Positions 8,255-54,302 of a DNA stretch of 64,000 nucleotides are shown piece after piece. This stretch comes from Oscillospiraceae bacterium. Lineage in GTDB: Bacteria; Bacillota; Clostridia; Oscillospirales; Oscillospiraceae. The notes under the pieces are model-generated. The model worked only from the letters and a program-made list of their open reading frames with translations. It made no database searches and was not told the origin of the DNA. Position 1 is the stretch's first letter. Each line of letters starts with the position of its first letter. The stretch is from the NCBI GenBank assembly GCA_022801715.1, contig JAAWSV010000007.1:1-64000 (forward strand), written 5' to 3'. The translations under genes and the position numbers were made by a program.

Positions 8255-10360
8255 ATGAGAAAGCAGAGAGTGCTGTCCTTGGTCTTGGCCTTGGTGATGG
8301 CCCTGAGCCTCTCCCTATGCGTCAGTGCCGATGAGAGCGGCGATCTGACCGGTGCGGTGGTGGTTATCCACACCGGGGATGTCCACGGGTCTATAGAGGG
8401 CTACGCCAAGGTGGCCGCCATGAAGAGCACCTATGAGGCGGCGGGGGCCTATGTGCTGCTCCTCGACGCCGGCGGCTTCGCCTCAGGGAGCCCCTACGTC
8501 CGCCATTCCAGTGGTGTGTCCGCGGTGGAGCTGATGAACGCCGCCGGCTACGTCGCCGCCGCGGTGGGGGAGAACGAGCTGAGTTATGGACAGGAGAAGC
8601 TGCAGGCGCTGACTGATCTGTCCAATTTCCCCCTGCTCTCCGCCAGCGTGATGAAGGGGGAGCCCCTTCTCCCCACCCATCAGATTTTTGAGGCTCCGGA
8701 CGGCCTGAAAATCGGCGTTTTCGGTCTCACCGCCCCGGAGATTGCCCACACCCTGAGCCCCAGTGCCGGAGAGGGCCTTACCTTCCTCACTGGCAGCGCC
8801 TTGGTCCGCGCGGCCAAAAACGAGGCTGCCGCCCTGCGGGAGGCCGGCTGTGAGCTGGTGATCTGCCTGAGCCACTTGGGCCTGCAGGGGGACGACGGGG
8901 CCCTGAGCCTTTTGAGGCAGGCGGAGGGCATTGACCTGATGATCGACGGCCACGCCCACACCACCCTGGAGGAGGTGAAGAAGGCCACCGGCGGCACCTG
9001 TATGGTGGGCGAAACCGCCCTCACCGCCGCCGGCAGCAGCTTTGCCGAGGTGGGCGTGGCGGTGTACATGGACGGGGAGATCGTCGCCCGGTCCCTGCCC
9101 TTGGACACCATCGCTGTCTCCGACGAGGCGGTGGCCGCCAAGGCTGCGGCCATTACAGACGAGGTGGACCGCTGGCTGGGCGAGACCATCGACAGCGCCC
9201 CCGCCCGCTTGGTCGGCGGGGCGGAGGCCCGGCGGGGGGAGACCAACTTGGGCGACCTTGTCTGTGATGCCATGCTGGTCTGGACTGAAGAGTTCGGCGG
9301 TGAAGTAATAGGGGAAATGGTGGATGCGGCCCTCCTCAGTGGCGGCGTTCTCCGGGACAGCATTGCTGCCGGGGAGGTCTGCTATGCCGACATCGCCGCT
9401 GCCTTGACTCCTGGCGAGACCTTGTGCACCATCCGTGTTACCGGTGCGGCCCTGATGGAGGCGTTGGAGTCTATGACTGCCGCCGCGCCCAAGGAGAGCT
9501 CCTCCTTCCCTCAGACAGCGAGAATGGACTTTGCCCTGAACATGTTGGAGCCCTTTGAGAGCGCTGGCTACTACCCCAATACCGAACAGTTGAAGCCCGC
9601 CGCCATCCATCGTGTGACCGTCACTGCGGTGGGCTATAAGGAGTTCGACCCTGAGGCCATCTACACTGTTGCCATCAATAGCAGCCTCAGGCCCGCGGCC
9701 TTCGCCCCTTTTGAGCGGAGCCGGATCAACTTGGGCGAACCCTTGGAGGATGTGTTAGCTATCTGCGGCATCGGGGCGCTGGACCCCGGCAGCTACGCGG
9801 AGAGCGCCGGGCGCATGAAACTGGTGGGTTATCAGGACGTCACCAGCGACAAGTGGTACGCCTCGGCGGTGAACTATGTCAGCACCACGGGCCTGATGCA
9901 GGGCTCCGCCGGCCTGTTCCGCCCCGGTGAGGCCATGAACCGGGCCATGCTGGTGACGGTGCTCTACCGTATGGCCGGCTCCCCGGCGGTGGAGGGGACC
10001 TCCCCCTTCACCGATGTGCCGGCGGGCAAGTGGTACACCGATGCGGTGCTCTGGGCCAGCAAAAATGGCATCGTCCAAGGCCAGACCGCCGACACCTTCG
10101 CCCCCAACGCCAGCATCACCCGCCAGCAGCTGGCCACCTTCCTCTACCGCTACGCCCAGGCGAAGCCCGTCCAGTCCAACCTCTCCGCTTTCACCGACGC
10201 CGGCCAGGTGAGCGCCTACGCCGCTGACCCTTTGGCTTGGGCGGTGGAGAACGGCTTCGTCGGCGGTACCACCCCCACCACCTTGGCCCCCCGCGACACC
10301 GCCTCCCGCGCCATGGTTGCCGCGGTGCTCATGCGGTATCAGCAGGGACAGGCGGAATAG
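8255..10360 (+). CDS. Secreted 5'-nucleotidase-like protein with SLH anchor; active site altered
   Basis: A 701-residue surface protein. It has a signal peptide (residues 1-25, cleavage near VSA-D), a metallophosphatase domain (about 30-290), a 5'-nucleotidase C-terminal domain ('NLGDLVCDAML' and 'LLSGGVLRDSIAAGEVCYAD', about 325-520) and three SLH repeats (about 525-701) for cell-wall binding. Metal-site residues are partly lost. The first motif keeps Asp42 and His44 (TGDVHG). The expected DAGD reads DAGG (Gly74), and the expected GNHE reads GENE (105-108). Later His motifs (LSHLG, DGHAHT) remain. UshA-type enzymes hydrolyse nucleotides outside the cell; with these changes, catalysis is doubtful. 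The start is ATG at 8255, preceded by AAGGAGGAG. Confidence 0.88.
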   Translation: MRKQRVLSLVLALVMALSLSLCVSADESGDLTGAVVVIHTGDVHGSIEGYAKVAAMKSTYEAAGAYVLLLDAGGFASGSPYVRHSSGVSAVELMNAAGYVAAAVGENELSYGQEKLQALTDLSNFPLLSASVMKGEPLLPTHQIFEAPDGLKIGVFGLTAPEIAHTLSPSAGEGLTFLTGSALVRAAKNEAAALREAGCELVICLSHLGLQGDDGALSLLRQAEGIDLMIDGHAHTTLEEVKKATGGTCMVGETALTAAGSSFAEVGVAVYMDGEIVARSLPLDTIAVSDEAVAAKAAAITDEVDRWLGETIDSAPARLVGGAEARRGETNLGDLVCDAMLVWTEEFGGEVIGEMVDAALLSGGVLRDSIAAGEVCYADIAAALTPGETLCTIRVTGAALMEALESMTAAAPKESSSFPQTARMDFALNMLEPFESAGYYPNTEQLKPAAIHRVTVTAVGYKEFDPEAIYTVAINSSLRPAAFAPFERSRINLGEPLEDVLAICGIGALDPGSYAESAGRMKLVGYQDVTSDKWYASAVNYVSTTGLMQGSAGLFRPGEAMNRAMLVTVLYRMAGSPAVEGTSPFTDVPAGKWYTDAVLWASKNGIVQGQTADTFAPNASITRQQLATFLYRYAQAKPVQSNLSAFTDAGQVSAYAADPLAWAVENGFVGGTTPTTLAPRDTASRAMVAAVLMRYQQGQAE

Positions 10361-46394: not shown

Positions 46395-46423
46395 TTGTAA
46401 TTTCCCCGCAGATTTGCTACAAT
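46395..46423 (+). promoter_or_regulatory. Promoter of the ruvC-ruvA run
   Basis: TTGTAA (46395-46400) and TACAAT (46418-46423) are spaced by 17 bp, 30 bp ahead of ruvC. Confidence 0.55.
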
Positions 46424-46452: not shown

Positions 46453-46974
46453 ATGCGGGTATTAGGCATTGACCCAGGGGTGGCTACCATCGGCTTCGGC
46501 GTGGTGGACTTCCAGCGGGGGGTCCACCGCTTGGTGCGGTACGGGGTCATCACCACCCCCGCCGGTCTGCCCCTGTCCCGCCGCCTGCTCCAGATCTCGG
46601 AGGACATGGGGGAGCTTTTGAGGCAGTTCAAGCCCGACGAGGCGGCGGTAGAGGAGCTGTTCTTCACCAAAAACATCACCACCGGCATCTCCGTGGCCCA
46701 CGGCCGGGGCGTCATCCTGCTGGAGCTGGAGCGCGCCGGCGTCCCGGTATACGAGTATACCCCCATGCAGGTCAAGCAGGCGGCGGCGGGCTACGGCGGC
46801 GCGGACAAGCGCCAGGTGATGCTGATGACCCAGCGCCTCTTAAAGATGCGGGAGATCCCCCGCCCGGACGACGCGGCGGACGCCTTAGCCTTAGCCCTCT
46901 GCCACGGCCGCTCCGCCACGAGCCTATTGAACACGGAGCGGGTGTTTGATCCAAAGAGGTACGACACACGGTAA
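46453..46974 (+). CDS. ruvC: Holliday junction resolvase RuvC
   Basis: A 173-residue nuclease that cuts four-way junctions in recombination and repair, working with RuvAB. The catalytic acids are in place: Asp7 in 'VLGIDPGVATIGFG', Glu67/68 in 'AAVEELFF', and Asp140 and Asp143 in 'PDDAADALALALCH'. The segment 'YTPMQVKQAAAGYGGADKRQV' is the usual DNA-contact region. The length is standard. AAGGAGG precedes the ATG. It is followed 29 bp later by ruvA. Confidence 0.97.
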   Translation: MRVLGIDPGVATIGFGVVDFQRGVHRLVRYGVITTPAGLPLSRRLLQISEDMGELLRQFKPDEAAVEELFFTKNITTGISVAHGRGVILLELERAGVPVYEYTPMQVKQAAAGYGGADKRQVMLMTQRLLKMREIPRPDDAADALALALCHGRSATSLLNTERVFDPKRYDTR

Positions 46975-47003: not shown

Positions 47004-47609
47004 ATGTTCTACTACCTGAGCGGTACCGTAGCCCACACCGCGCCCTACCTCGCCGTCATCGACTGCGCCGGCGTGGGGTACGCCTGCCGTACCACGTCCT
47101 ATACGCTCTCTGGGCTGAAAAAGGGGGAGAAGGGGAAGCTGTACACCTACCTCAACGTCCGGGAGGACGCCATGGAGCTCTACGGCTTCGGCACCCAGGA
47201 GGAGCTGAATCTCTTTGAGCAGCTGATCGGCGTCTCCGGTGTGGGGCCCAAGGCGGCGCTCAGTATCCTCTCCGCCTCCACGCCGGCCAACCTGGCCTTG
47301 AGCATCATCACCGGGGACGAGAAGGCCCTGACCTGCGCGCAGGGGATCGGGAAGAAGATCGCCCAGCGGGTGATCCTGGAGCTGAAGGACAAGCTGGCCA
47401 AGGGACAGGCGGACTTCGGCGGCGGCGCCGCGTCCGGCGGTGCGCCGGCGGTGATCCCCGCGGGCAAGCTCTCCGAGGCCGGCGCCGCCTTGGCGGTGCT
47501 GGGGTACTCCCAGGGGGAGATCAACGTGGCCCTCAAGGGTGTGGACATTGACAGCCTGCCCTTGGAGGAGATCATCCGGCAGGCGCTGAAAAAGATGGTA
47601 AAGGGATAG
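47004..47609 (+). CDS. ruvA: Holliday junction branch migration protein RuvA
   Basis: A 201-residue protein that forms the tetramer holding the Holliday junction for the RuvB motor. Domain I is an OB fold ('MFYYLSGTVAHTAPYLAVIDCAGVGYACRT'). Domain II has the helix-hairpin-helix pairs 'LIGVSGVGPKAALSIL' and 'CAQGIGKKIAQRVILELKDKL'. Domain III (about 150-201, 'AALAVLGYSQGEINVALKGVD') contacts RuvB. Its partner ruvB is not adjacent; four other genes lie between them. Confidence 0.97.
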   Translation: MFYYLSGTVAHTAPYLAVIDCAGVGYACRTTSYTLSGLKKGEKGKLYTYLNVREDAMELYGFGTQEELNLFEQLIGVSGVGPKAALSILSASTPANLALSIITGDEKALTCAQGIGKKIAQRVILELKDKLAKGQADFGGGAASGGAPAVIPAGKLSEAGAALAVLGYSQGEINVALKGVDIDSLPLEEIIRQALKKMVKG

Positions 47610-47650: not shown

Positions 47651-48304
47651 ATGACAGAGAACGAGACGATGGAGCGGGGCACAGGCACGGAGCGGGAGGA
47701 GATCGCCGCCCCCGGGTGGGACGCCATCACGGCGGCCTTTGACGCCCTCTACCCCGGGCAGACGGACCCCCTGCACTTCGGCTGCCTGATCCCTTGGCGC
47801 TTAGGCGGACCGGACCCCCTGCAGGGCATCAGCGTCTACGACGCCGGCGACTGCTTCCACTTTGTCACCTACGGCCTCACCGACCTCTACGAGAAGGAGG
47901 GAAATGACCCCAACTACAGCGGCTTTGGCTACGAGTTCACCCTGAAGCTGCGGAAGGCCGGCTTGGAGGACGAGATGGCGGAGCAGCGGGGGATTGCCGG
48001 AATCCTGCAGTCCTTGGCCCGGCTGACCTTTGAGAAGGGGGAGCAGTTCTACCCCAACGAATACATCTACACCGGCCAGGAGACCGGGATGGACGCCCGT
48101 GGCATCTCCAGGCTCACCGGCTTCATCACCGCCGAGGACGAGGCGGGGACCATCGACACCCCCAACGGCAAGGTGGACTTTATCAAGCTCATCGGCGTCA
48201 CCGATGCGGAGCTGAAGGCCATCATGGCCAAGACCCTCCGTGTGCAGGAGCTGGCGGGAAAGATCGGGGACCTCACCGACTACACGCGGGAGAGCATCGT
48301 GTGA
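47651..48304 (+). CDS. Suppressor-of-fused (SUFU) domain protein
   Basis: A 217-residue soluble protein. The bulk (about 20-185) matches the SUFU domain: 'AITAAFDALYPGQTDPLHFG', 'LQGISVYDAGDCFHFVTYGLTDLYEKEG' and 'SGFGYEFTLKLRK', followed by 'DFIKLIGVTDAELKAI'. Bacterial SUFU proteins occur widely as immunity proteins in polymorphic toxin systems and in arrays of immunity genes. The start is ATG at 47651, with AAGGAGG upstream. It overlaps the next gene by four bases (GTGA). It opens a four-gene block between ruvA and ruvB. Confidence 0.88.
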   Translation: MTENETMERGTGTEREEIAAPGWDAITAAFDALYPGQTDPLHFGCLIPWRLGGPDPLQGISVYDAGDCFHFVTYGLTDLYEKEGNDPNYSGFGYEFTLKLRKAGLEDEMAEQRGIAGILQSLARLTFEKGEQFYPNEYIYTGQETGMDARGISRLTGFITAEDEAGTIDTPNGKVDFIKLIGVTDAELKAIMAKTLRVQELAGKIGDLTDYTRESIV

Positions 48305-48822
48305 GAAAAACACTGCTGCTGGTCAATGGTCCTATGGGCGCGGGCAAGTCGGCGGTGTGCCGGGAGCTGCTGGAGCTTTTGCGGCCCGGGGCCTACTTGG
48401 ACGGCGACTGGTGCTGGATGACCCGCCCCTTCCAAGTGACGGAGGAGAGCCGGGCCATGGTGATGGACAACATCACCGCCCTGCTGGGGCGATTCCTACG
48501 CAGCCCGGACCTGAAATACGTGATCTTCGGCTGGGTGATGCACCAAGAGGAGATCGCCCGGACCATACTCCGCCGCTTGGACCTGACGGACACAGTCGTG
48601 GCCCGTTACACCCTCCTCTGTTCCCCGGAGACGCTCCGGGAGCGGATCGAAAAAGACATAGCCGCCGGCCTCCGTACCCCGGATGCGGCGGAGCGGAGCC
48701 TCGCCTACCTGCCCCTGTACGAGGGGCAGCCTACCACCAAAATCATGACCGACCGCCTGACCCCATCCCAGACCGCGATGGCCATCGCGGCGCAAATAAC
48801 CGTACAAGGAGACCCTCTATGA
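48301..48822 (+). CDS. P-loop kinase-like (AAA_33) protein
   Basis: A 173-residue nucleotide-binding protein with Walker A 'NGPMGAGKSAVCREL' (about 9-23). 'AYLDGDWCWMTRPF' contains a likely substrate-binding Asp, and the C-terminal lid region is 'SPETLRERIEKDIAAGLRTPD'. The layout is that of small-molecule kinases such as gluconate, shikimate or aminoglycoside kinases, and the phosphoacceptor is unknown. The start is GTG at 48301, inside the SUFU stop codon. It overlaps the DUF3788 gene by four bases (ATGA), so it is translationally coupled on both sides. Confidence 0.82.
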   Translation: MRKTLLLVNGPMGAGKSAVCRELLELLRPGAYLDGDWCWMTRPFQVTEESRAMVMDNITALLGRFLRSPDLKYVIFGWVMHQEEIARTILRRLDLTDTVVARYTLLCSPETLRERIEKDIAAGLRTPDAAERSLAYLPLYEGQPTTKIMTDRLTPSQTAMAIAAQITVQGDPL

Positions 48823-49265
48823 CTTGGAGCCAGCTCTACACCAAGATCCAATCCCCCACCCCGGTGGACTTCGACCATTATATGGACCACCCCCTCTGGA
48901 CAGCCCTGCGGACCTTTGTGGAGGACACCTACGGCGTGACGCCCCTTGTGGAGTACAGCTGCTGCTGTTCCGCGCCGGGATGGAACATGAAGTACCGCCG
49001 GAGCGGGAAGTCCATCTGCACGCTGTACCCCGGCCTGCCGGAGGAGGGGCAGTTTACCTGCTTGGTGGTCATCGGCCCAAAGGAGGCGGATCAGGCGGAG
49101 GCCCTTCTGAGCACCTGTGATCCATACCTGCAGACGCTCTACCAAGCGGCGGGGGGCACCGGCGGTAGCCGGTGGCTGATGATTGCCGTCACCACGGAGC
49201 GCATCCTGGAGGAGGTCAAGGTCCTGCTCCAGTTCCGTCTCAAGCCGCCGAAGAAGCGGACATAA
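48819..49265 (+). CDS. DUF3788 family protein
   Basis: A 148-residue soluble protein with the DUF3788 pattern: 'TWSQLYTKIQSPTPVDFDHYM' at the start, the conserved core 'VEYSCCCSAPGWNMKYRRSGKSICTLYP' and the region 'FTCLVVIGPKEADQAE'. The function is unknown; family members occur as small accessory genes, often in variable loci with immunity-type proteins. The ATG at 48819 overlaps the stop of the kinase-like gene. A frame extension upstream would overlap that gene fully and is rejected. Confidence 0.82.
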   Translation: MTWSQLYTKIQSPTPVDFDHYMDHPLWTALRTFVEDTYGVTPLVEYSCCCSAPGWNMKYRRSGKSICTLYPGLPEEGQFTCLVVIGPKEADQAEALLSTCDPYLQTLYQAAGGTGGSRWLMIAVTTERILEEVKVLLQFRLKPPKKRT

Positions 49266-49296
49266 CACCAGAGAGACCAGCGGAGGAGGTAAGCCG

Positions 49297-50454
49297 ATGG
49301 ACCGCACAGACACCGCCCCCCGATTCCTGCTGACCAACGCCCAGCGCGCCTGCATGGGTCTGACGCCTGTGGACCCCTCTTGGGAGTGGGTGCGGCTGAA
49401 GAGCGTCTGCAAGGACCCGGACTTCGAGAACTGGGCCTGCTTTGACGGGGACACCATCCGCAAGTACGTCTACTACAGCCCCTCCCACTACGAGGAGTGC
49501 ACCTATGAGGAACAGACGGCGGAGAACCGCACCCTCCTCCTGCCCCGGACGGCCCGGGGGAAGCCCAAAAAGCTCACCAACATCACCCTCTCCAACCGCA
49601 AGAGCCTGGGGATGCGCCTGCGCTGGTCCCAGCGGATTGCCGCGGTGGAGCTGCGCCACGAGGACACGGCCCGGACCTATTACAGCTCCGGCCTGGAGGA
49701 CTACGCTATCCGGACACTGGATGACCTCGCCGCCTGGCTGGACCGCTGGGCGGCGGAGACCACACCGGAGGACCTGACGGCCTTGGACCGCTTCCTCACA
49801 GCCAAGCGCCGGCGGGTCCAGGTCCGGGAGGGGGACTTCTTCCGCTTCTCTATAGGCCGGCGCGCCTATGGCTACGGCCGGGTGCTGCTGGACTACTACC
49901 GGATGAAGAAGGAGGGGCGGCCCTGCTGGGACATCCTCATGTGCCGCCCCTTGGTGGTCAAGACCTACCGCTTCATCACCGACGACCCGGCGGTGCCGGT
50001 GGAGGTGCTGCGGGAGCTCCCCGCCCTGCCCTCCTACTATATGTCCGACGACGGCATCTTTTTGGGGGAGTACCCCGTGGTGGGGAACCTGCCGCTGGAG
50101 ATAGGGGAGCTGGATTTTCCGATTATGTACGGCGGCAGCATCTCCGGTCTGGACCGGGGCCGGGACCGGACGCTGCTCCAGTGCGGCACCCTGTACCGCG
50201 TCTTGGAGGACGTGGCGCCCCTCCCCGGCTGGGTCAGCTGCTTTCGCCATAACGGCGTCACCCTGGCGCCGATTTGCATCAACCGGCCAACCTTGGAGGC
50301 GTGTATCGCCGCCGGGAGCAATGGCCCCTACTGGGAGCGGACGAAGGACTGGGCGCTAAAGGACCTGCGCAGCCCCTACTGCCGGGAGCAGCTCGCGGCG
50401 GTCTGTGAGCAGATGGGCCTCAGTATGGCGGAACTTCCCGTTAAGCTGGACTGA
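49297..50454 (+). CDS. Imm26-like immunity protein
   Basis: A 385-residue soluble protein. The section from about residue 170 on ('VQVREGDFFRFSIGRRAYGYGRVLLDYYRMKKEGRPCWDILMCRPLVVKTYRFI') matches the Imm26 immunity-protein pattern: a small beta domain with a GD-x-F-x-F/I start and a GYGRVL strand. The N-terminal 165 residues are unrecognised. No toxin gene, Rhs core or secretion marker lies nearby. The start is ATG at 49297, with GGAGGAGG upstream. It ends the four-gene block; ruvB follows 15 bp later. Confidence 0.72.
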   Translation: MDRTDTAPRFLLTNAQRACMGLTPVDPSWEWVRLKSVCKDPDFENWACFDGDTIRKYVYYSPSHYEECTYEEQTAENRTLLLPRTARGKPKKLTNITLSNRKSLGMRLRWSQRIAAVELRHEDTARTYYSSGLEDYAIRTLDDLAAWLDRWAAETTPEDLTALDRFLTAKRRRVQVREGDFFRFSIGRRAYGYGRVLLDYYRMKKEGRPCWDILMCRPLVVKTYRFITDDPAVPVEVLRELPALPSYYMSDDGIFLGEYPVVGNLPLEIGELDFPIMYGGSISGLDRGRDRTLLQCGTLYRVLEDVAPLPGWVSCFRHNGVTLAPICINRPTLEACIAAGSNGPYWERTKDWALKDLRSPYCREQLAAVCEQMGLSMAELPVKLD

Positions 50455-50469
50455 AAAGGAAGTGACATT

Positions 50470-51528
50470 TTGAGCATTGATTTTTCCCGGGACGACATAT
50501 ATATGGAGGAGCAGGAGCCCTTAGTCACCACCTCCCTCACCCGTGAGGACGAGGGGGAGTACTCCCTGCGCCCCCGGACACTGCAGGAGTATATCGGTCA
50601 GGAGAAGGCCAAGGGCAACCTGGAGATTTTCATCCAGGCCGCCAAGCTCCGGGGAGAGCCCTTGGACCATGTGCTGCTCCACGGCCCTCCAGGCCTGGGC
50701 AAAACCACCCTCTCAGGGATCATCGCCAATGAGATGGGGGTCAACGTCCGCATCACCTCCGGTCCCGCCATTGAGAAGGCCGGGGACCTGGCGGCGCTGC
50801 TGACCAACCTGAATGAGAACGACATCCTCTTCGTGGACGAGATCCACCGCCTCAACCGCTCGGTGGAGGAGGTGCTCTACCCCGCCATGGAGGACTACGC
50901 CATCGACATCATCATCGGCAAGGGCCCCTCGGCCAACTCCATCCGCTTGGACCTGCCCAAGTTCACCCTCATCGGAGCCACCACCAGGGCGGGACAGCTC
51001 TCCGCTCCCCTCCGGGACCGGTTCGGCGTCACATTGCGCCTGGAGCTCTACACCCCGGAGGAGCTGGGCCTCATCGTCACCCGCTCCGCCGGCATCCTGA
51101 ACGTGCCCATCGAGCGGGAGGGGGCCATGGAGATTGCCAAGCGCAGCCGGGGTACCCCCCGGATCGCCAACCGGATGCTCCGCCGTGTCCGGGACTTCGC
51201 CCAGGTGAAGGCCGGCGGCGTCATCACACGGGAGGTGGCCGACCAGTCCCTCACCGCCCTGGAGGTGGACTACTTAGGGCTGGACAACATCGACCGCCGG
51301 ATGCTCCGGGCCATTGTGGAGTTCTACGGCGGCGGCCCGGTGGGTCTGGAGACCCTGGCCGCCACCATCAACGAGGAGGCGGTGACCTTGGAGGACGTGT
51401 ACGAGCCCTACCTGATGCAGCTGGGCTTCCTCACCCGCACCCCCCGGGGCCGCTGCGTCACCGCCAAGGCCTACCAGCACCTGGGCCTCTCCCAGTGCGG
51501 CGGCAGCATGGACCAATTACAACTATAG
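50470..51528 (+). CDS. ruvB: Holliday junction branch migration helicase RuvB
   Basis: A 352-residue AAA+ motor that drives branch migration with RuvA. Motifs are '[20 protein letters not shown]', Walker A '[12 protein letters not shown]' (about 73-84), Walker B '[24 protein letters not shown]', sensor 1 '[20 protein letters not shown]' and the winged-helix end '[17 protein letters not shown]'. The start is TTG at 50470, with AAGGAAG upstream. It lies 3.0 kb downstream of ruvA, which is unusual, and is directly followed by an AAA ATPase gene (3-bp gap). Confidence 0.97.
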
Positions 51529-51531
51529 TCT

Positions 51532-52287
51532 ATGGACAGACGATACGCGGAACGCCTCTATCTGAACACCCCCCTGCCGGAGGAATCCTACCTCGCCGCC
51601 CTGCCGGCCCTCCGGGCCTTGGCGGACCGGGGCCGGGACGGCCTCCTCTTCGACGCCGACGTGACCTTCTTGGTGGGGGAGAACGGCGCGGGGAAGTCCA
51701 CCCTTTTAGAGGGCATCGCCGTGGCCTGCGGCTTCAACGCCGAGGGCGGCACCCGAAACTTCTCCTTCGCCACCGAGGAGACCCACTCGGCCCTGTGCCA
51801 ATACCTCACCGTGGCCCGGGGCCGCTACCCCAGGGACGGCTTCTTTCTCCGGGCGGAGAGCTTCTACAACGTGGCCTCCTACATTGACCGGCTGGATGGA
51901 GAGCCCTCCTTCAGCCCCCGGCTCATCGACAGCTACGGCGGCGTGTCCCTCCACCACCAGTCCCACGGGGAGAGCTTCCTCAGCTTGGTGCAGAACCGCT
52001 TCGGCGGCATGGGCCTCTACCTCTTGGACGAGCCGGAGGCGGCCTTGTCCCCCTCCCGACAGCTGAGCCTTCTGGCCCTCCTCCACGACCTGGTGGGGCG
52101 GGACTCCCAGTTCATCATCGCCACCCACTCGCCGATTTTGATGGCCTACCCCGGCGCGAGGATCTACCAGTTGGACGAGGAGGGCATCCGGGCAGTGGCG
52201 TACCAAGAGACCGGGCACTACCAGCTGACAAAGCAGTTTTTGGAGGGACCGGAGCGAATGCTGCGATACCTCCTTCAGGAGAATTAG
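51532..52287 (+). CDS. AAA family ATPase (ABC/SMC-type head)
   Basis: A 251-residue soluble ATPase. Walker A is 'LVGENGAGKSTLLEGIA' (about 47-63). A signature-like 'HHQSHGESFLSLVQNRF' is near 145-161, Walker B is 'GLYLLDEPEAALSP' and the switch is 'QFIIATHSPILMAYPGARIYQLDEEGI'. This matches small stand-alone ABC/SMC-like ATPases often called YhaQ- or AAA_21-type. No membrane partner is seen. It begins 3 bp after ruvB, so it is likely expressed with the recombination genes; a DNA-repair or phage-defence role is possible but unsupported. Confidence 0.82.
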   Translation: MDRRYAERLYLNTPLPEESYLAALPALRALADRGRDGLLFDADVTFLVGENGAGKSTLLEGIAVACGFNAEGGTRNFSFATEETHSALCQYLTVARGRYPRDGFFLRAESFYNVASYIDRLDGEPSFSPRLIDSYGGVSLHHQSHGESFLSLVQNRFGGMGLYLLDEPEAALSPSRQLSLLALLHDLVGRDSQFIIATHSPILMAYPGARIYQLDEEGIRAVAYQETGHYQLTKQFLEGPERMLRYLLQEN

Positions 52288-52316
52288 GAATTGTTTTCAG
52301 ACAGGAGATTTTTACA

Positions 52317-52877
52317 GTGAAGAAGATGGAGCTGGAGGAAGGGCTTTGCCGGGTGGTGATCACGGAGGATACCACCTATACCATAGGCTCTGCGGATAAC
52401 CGGTACTACAATGCCGTGCTGAATCCCGCCGGCTATGGGCGAGGGGATGGGACGACAACCCTTTGTATTGATATTGATCTATTGATTGAACAGCTCCGGG
52501 TGGCGCTGATCGGGTCGTACCACACCTGCGTGAGCCAGTGCGCCGTCTTGGAGGGCGGGATATTGACCGTCCTTCAGAACCAGAGGGTCACTCAGCTCCG
52601 GGTTACCGATGGGACGCTGCTGCGGAGTGTGGACATCGGAGGTCTGGGCTGCCACTACGCCATCTATCAGGTGGATCAGGCGTACCTCATTTGCGGGGAG
52701 CTGGAGATTGCCATGCTGGACGCCGGCCTGAATAGGCTGTGGAGCTTCTCCGGGGCGGACATCTTCGCCTCCGTTACCGGGAAGAACCCCGTGGAGCTGC
52801 GGGAGCGGTCCATTGTCCTCTACGACTTCGAGGACAACCGGTACGAGATCGACTACGACGGAAATGTAATTTCATAG
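52317..52877 (+). CDS. Hypothetical protein with beta-propeller-like strands
   Basis: A 186-residue soluble protein composed mainly of beta strands ('VSQCAVLEGGILTVLQNQRVTQLRVTDGTLLRSVDIGGLGCHYAIYQVDQAYLICGELEIAMLD'), reminiscent of part of a beta-propeller. It matches no family I can name. The start is GTG at 52317, with AGGAG upstream; ATG at 52326 is the alternative. It lies 29 bp after the ATPase gene. Confidence 0.65.
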   Translation: MKKMELEEGLCRVVITEDTTYTIGSADNRYYNAVLNPAGYGRGDGTTTLCIDIDLLIEQLRVALIGSYHTCVSQCAVLEGGILTVLQNQRVTQLRVTDGTLLRSVDIGGLGCHYAIYQVDQAYLICGELEIAMLDAGLNRLWSFSGADIFASVTGKNPVELRERSIVLYDFEDNRYEIDYDGNVIS

Positions 52878-52946: not shown

Positions 52947-54302
52947 ATGGGAAAACTCTTTGGCACCGACGGTATCCGCGGCATTGTGGGGGAGAACCTC
53001 ACCGCTGATCTGGCCTACCGGGTGGGGCAGGCGGTCACCGCCGTTCTCTTTGAGGAGAAGGGGAGGAAGCCCCTTGTCACCATCGGCATGGACACCCGCA
53101 TCTCCTCGGACATGCTGGAGGGGGCGCTGATCGCCGGCATCTGCTCCGCCGGAGGCGACGTGATGCCCTTGGGCACCATCCCCACCCCGGCGGTGGCCTA
53201 TCTCACCATCAAGGTGGGCGCCGACGCCGGCGTGGTGATCTCCGCCAGCCATAACCCCTTCGAGCACAACGGCATCAAGGTCTTCAACGGCGAGGGCTAT
53301 AAGCTCTCCGACGCCCTGGAGGAGCGTGTGGAGGAGAAGATCCTCTCCGGCGAGAACATGGCCACCGCCAAGGGCGGGGACATCGGCAAGCGCATCCACG
53401 GCATGAAAAACCTGAAATACGAGTATATCAAGCACCTCTTGGGCACGGTGGAGGACAATCTGGGGGGGCTGCGCATTTTAGTGGACTGCGCCAACGGTGC
53501 CGCTGCCGCCACCGCCCCGGACCTCTTCGCCAAGTTCGACATCGAGGCGGACTTCATCCACCGCAAGCCCAATGGCGTGAACATCAACGACCGCTGCGGC
53601 TCCACCCACCTGAAGTCCCTGTCGGCCATGGTCACCGCCGGTGAGTACGACTTAGGGGTGGCCTTCGACGGCGACGCGGACCGGTGCCTGATGATCGACG
53701 AGCGGGGAAACGTCATCGACGGTGACAAGACCATGGCGGTCTGCGGCTTGGACATGAAGAACCGGGGCCTCCTCACGGGCCTTACCATCGTGGGCACCGT
53801 CATGAGCAACCTGGGGCTCCACGAGTTCTGCAACCAGAACGGCCTGCGCTTGGTCTGCACGGCGGTGGGGGACCGGAACGTGCTGGAGAAGATGCTGGAG
53901 AAGGGCTACCGCATCGGCGGGGAGCAGTCGGGCCACATGATCTTCAGCGACTACGCCACCACTGGCGACGGCCAGCTCACCGCCCTGCAATTCCTCCAGA
54001 TCCTGCGGCGCAGCGGGAGAAGGGCCTCGGAGCTGGTCAGCGTCTGCCCCCAGTACCCGCAGGTGCTGGAGAACGTGAGACTGGAGAACGTCCCCGGTTT
54101 GAAGGAGCGGGTGATGGATGCCGAGGCATTGCGCAGCGCCATCCGGCAGGAGGAGGCGGCCATGGCCGGGGAGGGCCGCGTGCTGGTCCGGGCCTCGGGC
54201 ACAGAGCCGCTGATCCGGGTGATGGTGGAGGCAAAAACCGCCGAAATGGCCGCCGCCTGCGCCGGCCGTCTGGTGGAATTGGTGAATATCATCAAAAAGT
54301 AA
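52947..54302 (+). CDS. glmM: Phosphoglucosamine mutase
   Basis: A 451-residue enzyme that interconverts glucosamine-6-phosphate and glucosamine-1-phosphate, feeding UDP-N-acetylglucosamine and cell-wall synthesis. It has 'KLFGTDGIRGIVGENLTADL' at the start and the phosphoserine loop 'VVISASHNPFEHNGIK' (Ser near residue 101). The metal loop is 'VAFDGDADRCLMID', the sugar-binding loop is 'IGGEQSGHMI', and the phosphate-binding 'VRASGTEPLIRVMVEA' completes the set. GGAG precedes the ATG. A TTGACA at about 52905 could be part of a promoter, but no -10 box is evident. Confidence 0.97.
   Translation: MGKLFGTDGIRGIVGENLTADLAYRVGQAVTAVLFEEKGRKPLVTIGMDTRISSDMLEGALIAGICSAGGDVMPLGTIPTPAVAYLTIKVGADAGVVISASHNPFEHNGIKVFNGEGYKLSDALEERVEEKILSGENMATAKGGDIGKRIHGMKNLKYEYIKHLLGTVEDNLGGLRILVDCANGAAAATAPDLFAKFDIEADFIHRKPNGVNINDRCGSTHLKSLSAMVTAGEYDLGVAFDGDADRCLMIDERGNVIDGDKTMAVCGLDMKNRGLLTGLTIVGTVMSNLGLHEFCNQNGLRLVCTAVGDRNVLEKMLEKGYRIGGEQSGHMIFSDYATTGDGQLTALQFLQILRRSGRRASELVSVCPQYPQVLENVRLENVPGLKERVMDAEALRSAIRQEEAAMAGEGRVLVRASGTEPLIRVMVEAKTAEMAAACAGRLVELVNIIKK

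Follow-up and report, generated by a model that had tools for sequence, protein, structure and literature searches.

The ruvA-ruvB interval of Oscillospiraceae as a probable integrase-free slot for accessory genes

The interval between ruvA and ruvB in an Oscillospiraceae bacterium and its relatives is probably an integrase-free accessory-gene slot, placed within a repair operon. Between the stop of ruvA and the start of ruvB, small single-domain genes would repeatedly enter by insertion, leave by deletion or be exchanged, and the most likely route would be recombination in the conserved flanks that these two genes provide. The designation of the interval as an accessory slot is well supported. 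Its content turns over between related species, genes are swapped one by one, the occupants come from a recurrent pool, and the cargo is under purifying selection. No description of this slot was found in the literature covered by open-licence papers.

The four-gene array and its expression

Gene calls and Pfam matches across the window, by which we mean the whole 64-kb stretch of DNA that was analysed, place four intact genes between ruvC-ruvA and ruvB, and all genes of the region lie on the + strand. ruvC (46453-46974; PF02075, E 4.9e-46) is followed by ruvA (47004-47609; RuvA_N, E 1.8e-21), which forms the left border of the slot. The cargo consists of a SUFU-domain protein of 217 aa (gene A, 47651-48304; PF05076, E 1e-23), a P-loop kinase-like protein of 173 aa with a GTG start (gene B, 48301-48822; AAA_18, E 1.9e-10), a DUF3788 protein of 148 aa (gene C, 48819-49265; PF12663, E 1.8e-30) and a protein of 385 aa, here called Imm26-long (gene D, 49297-50454), which matches PF15428 over residues 177-278 only (E 2.1e-14). 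The right border is ruvB, with a TTG start (50470-51528; PF05496, E 4e-82). Genes A and B overlap by 4 bp (GTGA), genes B and C likewise (ATGA), and 31 bp separate DUF3788 from Imm26-long. The preliminary description had four packed genes splitting ruvC-ruvA from ruvB, the first three overlapping by four bases; the positions and names are upheld by Pfam and the overlaps are real. The same four genes in identical order are carried by G010, a separate assembly in which the interval is 95% identical in DNA over its full length, and an assembly artefact is thereby ruled out.

The close spacing of genes runs on 3′ of ruvB, through an AAA_21 ATPase (51532-52287; PF13304, E 3.8e-14) and an orphan gene (52317-52877) to glmM (52947-54302). 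The ATPase is weakly similar to the PtuA/AriA ATPases and its presence varies in relatives; the ruvB-glmM stretch (here 51532-52877) is also variable among them, and a gene of the SdpI family is often located there.

The ruv operon has a weak candidate promoter, TTGTAA-17-TACAAT (46395-46423, + strand), which a consensus scan detected with 9/12 matches. Two promoter-like sites are present in the region where 1.2 are expected, and terminator-like sites are no more frequent there than chance predicts. Because neither kind of site exceeds chance, read-through from the ruv promoter together with coupling at the overlaps is the simplest reading. The cargo would then probably be co-transcribed with the ruv genes, the overlapping cargo genes may be translationally coupled, and the layout of the operon suggests that cargo expression could be constitutive. 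SOS control was considered and rejected, as the three matches to GAAC-N4-GTTY in the 64-kb window are at chance level and none is near ruv. No structured RNA was found.

The SUFU protein is matched over almost its whole length by PF05076 (84.5 bits, curated cut-off 25) and also matches solved Suppressor-of-fused structures (E ~1e-17). Imm26-long scores 54.1 bits against PF15428 (curated cut-off 23.3), a family matched by all eight members of its alignment (A1). The earlier assignment of these two proteins to immunity superfamilies is thus confirmed. Imm26-long exceeds plain Imm26 in that a conserved N-terminal region of ~175 aa precedes the Imm26 domain; this region is modelled at ~pLDDT 90, and no Pfam or PDB-fold counterpart was found for it. 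Compared with G010 (L027), 11 of the 26 amino-acid differences in Imm26-long fall within the last 25 residues (window 50377-50451). The kinase contains the Walker A motif GPMGAGKS. Its sole solved relative by sequence is 2BDT (E 2.4e-6), and its best NCBIfam match, Gar/GrdA, is far under the cut-off (26.5 bits against 170). The structure model of the DUF3788 protein is confident, and no significant fold match was found in the PDB, either to it or to Imm26-long. Searches of the four cargo genes with PADLOC and PHROGs gave no convincing match to a defence system or a phage family, respectively. The cargo genes are intact and under purifying selection, yet they are less constrained than the ruv genes (dN/dS 0.12-0.41 versus 0.03-0.05).

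Occupancy and turnover among relatives

The ruv loci were drawn from 89 family genomes and from public genomes of named relatives, Pseudoflavonifractor and Lawsonibacter among them, and the gaps were compared over 94 loci; gene calls in the relatives were made with a simple script, and their starts are approximate. In most species the interval is empty, with 3-60 bp between ruvA and ruvB. A gap of at least 150 bp separates ruvA from ruvB in 39 of 94 loci, compared with 7 of 94 for ruvC and ruvA (Fisher p 5e-8), and when the loci picked for their cargo are left out the counts are 30/85 and 7/85 (p 3e-5); because the loci are related, both p-values are descriptive only. On the RuvCAB tree the occupancy of ruvA-ruvB switches at least 18 times, that of ruvC-ruvA six times. 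The carriers include single-contig genomes (for example G137 and G275), so fragmentation is not the explanation of the filled gaps. The preliminary description had called for this comparison among relatives and regarded four genes fixed across the family as evidence against its reading; gain, loss and swapping are all seen at the species level, and the array varies. Congeners have a further small slot in the ruvC-ruvA gap (L029 7741-8172, L030 4895-5149, L031 10829-11083), where the gene belongs to a single family (SSYVYV..CGNCG..FTGRKMTL) that has no match in Pfam.

The recurrent pool of the slot comprises DUF6054, SUFU, kinase, Imm26-long, DUF3788, DUF3784, the small membrane proteins TM56, TM100 and ZnTM, and an unnamed family X, and a CPCC domain protein and a DUF4430 protein are occasional occupants. 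In relatives, DUF6054 fills the slot most often, ahead of the kinase, the small membrane proteins and DUF3784. The pair SUFU-DUF6054 is found in a culturable carrier, Pseudoflavonifractor sp. 60. The relative order of these genes is largely kept: the minority direction occurs in three of 39 repeated comparisons versus 10 on shuffling (fraction 0.002), in a test that rests on 12 distinct arrays that are not independent.

Imm26-long has six carriers among 400 family genomes, and in every one it adjoins ruvB on the 5′ side or, in G081, is separated from it by one to two small genes. In 150 genomes Pfam gave five Imm26 matches, of which four are Imm26-long genes of the slot. SUFU genes of at least 68% identity are all in the slot, and those of at most 54% are elsewhere. 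By coordinates, DUF6054 is in the slot in 8 of its 29 carriers. Relatives of the kinase (in 45 of 250 family genomes) and of DUF3788 (35 of 200) are mostly outside it. Beyond the family, relatives of Imm26-long (~35% identity) do not adjoin ruv, and one such copy, read by eye, is near integrative-element-like genes and a restriction system. Comparison of Imm26-long with plasmid and phage collections gave only ~20% matches, on Listeria records. One contig of a viral collection (L153, 1075-6110) carries two tandem serine recombinases and then an Imm26-long gene (41% identity). In G081, which belongs to another genus, ruvCA does not adjoin ruvB, and the four cargo genes, family X and further small genes are still found 5′ of ruvB; beyond this ruvB-side array (L036) a HicAB-like pair was recognised by eye.

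Turnover can be followed most closely in two pairs of genomes. The near-sisters G291 and G324, whose flanks are 95.5-95.8% identical, form an empty/filled pair, with a 13-bp spacer in one and the single gene Imm26-long in the other. In G007 and G008 (RuvB 97%, GlmM 98%) the flanks, the kinase, TM56 and DUF3784 are common to both, and a gene-wise swap has left TM100 and ZnTM in one and family X and Imm26-long in the other. In G008 (L031, - strand, near 8576), the beginning of Imm26-long repeats the ribosome-binding site and initial codons of ruvB at 34/35 nt, ATGGCAATTGATTTTTC, the true ruvB start being further downstream. This copy, a single case, is likely to be an insertion scar, and it is consistent with what would be expected if DNA already holding Imm26-long beside ruvB had been joined at the 5′ end of ruvB. 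Outside G008, the search for other ruvB-start scars gave a longest exact copy of 11 nt, which is within chance.

Divergence is uneven along the array. Against G081, dS is ~0.5 for Imm26-long and ruvB and 1.2-1.4 for the kinase and DUF3788, which identifies the array as a mosaic. The DUF3788 gene differs from that of G010 by three synonymous differences at 104 sites, compared with ~0.13-0.21 per site for its neighbours, and this low divergence hints at a recent exchange. Imm26-long is 58% identical to that of G024, from another genus, and 46% to that of the congener G008; for RuvC the relation is reversed (60% and 83%). A similar incongruence with the host is seen for the G004 kinase. Cargo-to-host distances do correlate in part (SUFU with RuvA, Spearman 0.71), and vertical inheritance followed by loss can therefore account for part of the distribution.

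Mobile-element insertion was tried as an explanation and rejected, since no integrase, informative flanking repeats or composition shift is present at the array; its GC content (0.63-0.66) is like that of the neighbours, and the genes examined, which run from mac to glmM, include no recombinase. Horizontal-transfer hotspots between core genes show recurrent turnover between conserved neighbours. The slot shares this turnover with them; it differs in being located within one tight operon, in consisting of single-gene modules and in having no integrase. An integron cassette array was also rejected, considering the 4-bp overlaps A/B and B/C and the C/D gap of only 31 bp. The small co-oriented modules behind one promoter are similar to integron arrays; unlike these, the slot has no integrase, and the A-B-C overlaps leave no room for attC. 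DUF3788 has been reported in an integron cassette (PMC11616780).

Immunity and competing explanations

Polyimmunity loci are described as toxin-free, co-oriented and tightly spaced series of immunity genes; they vary among relatives and have a recombinase nearby in several cases (PMC3482391). SuFu and Imm26 are both listed in the heterogeneous loci of this kind, and Imm26 is paired with Tox-URI1 nucleases (Zhang et al. 2012, PMC3482391). The array is similar to them in several aspects: Pfam detects no toxin among the four genes, which are on the same strand with spacings of -4, -4 and 31 bp, SUFU and Imm26 are present, and gene number and type vary between close relatives at the species level. 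It differs in that only two of the four genes belong to immunity families, the kinase and DUF3788 having no known immunity role, in its location inside a housekeeping operon, in having no recombinase, and in that the slot of relatives is filled mostly by other families. A further comparison is offered by the V. cholerae T6SS clusters, where homologous recombination at one fixed place builds up arrays of orphan immunity genes (PMC5361080). Like the arrays in that account, the slot has a fixed chromosomal place, sequential displacement and an accumulation of small genes; unlike them, it is without effector or secretion genes, and its anchors are ruvA and ruvB.

The preliminary description took the array for a polyimmunity cassette, that is, a preventive defence array in which all four genes encode immunity proteins and the kinase and DUF3788 represent new immunity types. 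An accessory, toxin-free array that sits in a housekeeping operon, is swapped and contains two immunity-superfamily genes fits this picture. The notion of a dedicated immunity store is not supported, because the main occupants of the slot (DUF6054, the kinase, the small membrane proteins and DUF3784) are not known immunity families. The relatives of the kinase and DUF3788 that lie mostly outside the slot also argue against it, as does the genome itself, in which no LXG or RHS toxin above cut-off was found; among the array genes, no Tox-URI1 toxin was found beside Imm26. We regard the interpretation of all four genes as immunity proteins as rather unlikely, and the label of an immunity cassette has partial support. 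For SUFU and/or Imm26-long the case for an immunity role is about evenly balanced; the two may well be orphan binding or immunity proteins directed against the toxins of neighbours. The kinase and DUF3788 would more likely be unrelated accessory genes sharing the slot than immunity proteins. In the congener G001 (L152), a type VII secretion-like cluster with small WXG100-like proteins and an EssC-like protein of 1551 aa was recognised by eye, which makes secreted antagonism in the genus possible.

On the other hand, the interval could be the remnant of an old operon, a ruvA-cargo-ruvB array that numbered a dozen genes in the ancestor and has been eroding separately in the different lineages, horizontal exchange playing little part. 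The kept order could also stem from such an ancestral long array, and the moderate correlation of SUFU, kinase and DUF6054 distances with ruv distances points in the same direction. Against this stand the incongruence of Imm26-long and the kinase between genera and congeners, the mosaic dS, the scar at the ruvB start of G008 and the occurrence of the cargo families elsewhere in genomes; moreover, under loss alone the G007/G008 swap would require two distinct losses around modules that are unrelated. Differential loss as the main explanation is accordingly quite improbable. It is most improbable that the four genes are functional partners of RuvAB that aid branch migration or DNA repair: the single operon, the tight spacing and the persistence of SUFU and Imm26-long with ruvB in G081 despite the non-adjacent ruvCA would agree with such a role, but the four genes are absent from most relatives, are under weaker constraint than ruv, and belong to a heterogeneous and swappable content. 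The integrase-free slot can also be put in a more far-reaching form, in which the ruvA-ruvB junction is a cassette-capture site where genes are spliced by recombination at the ruvB translation start and gain its expression, the order-keeping pool being defensive and including undescribed immunity types; in this form the proposal is unlikely.

The integrase-free slot has the potential to serve as a model of how an operon belonging to the recombination machinery acquires genes with no integrase involved. Through guilt by location, DUF6054, DUF3788, the kinase, family X and the N-terminal domain of Imm26-long become candidates for defence. In mostly uncultured gut Clostridia, the slot provides an easily aligned place, with clean empty sites, where gain and loss may be followed gene by gene.
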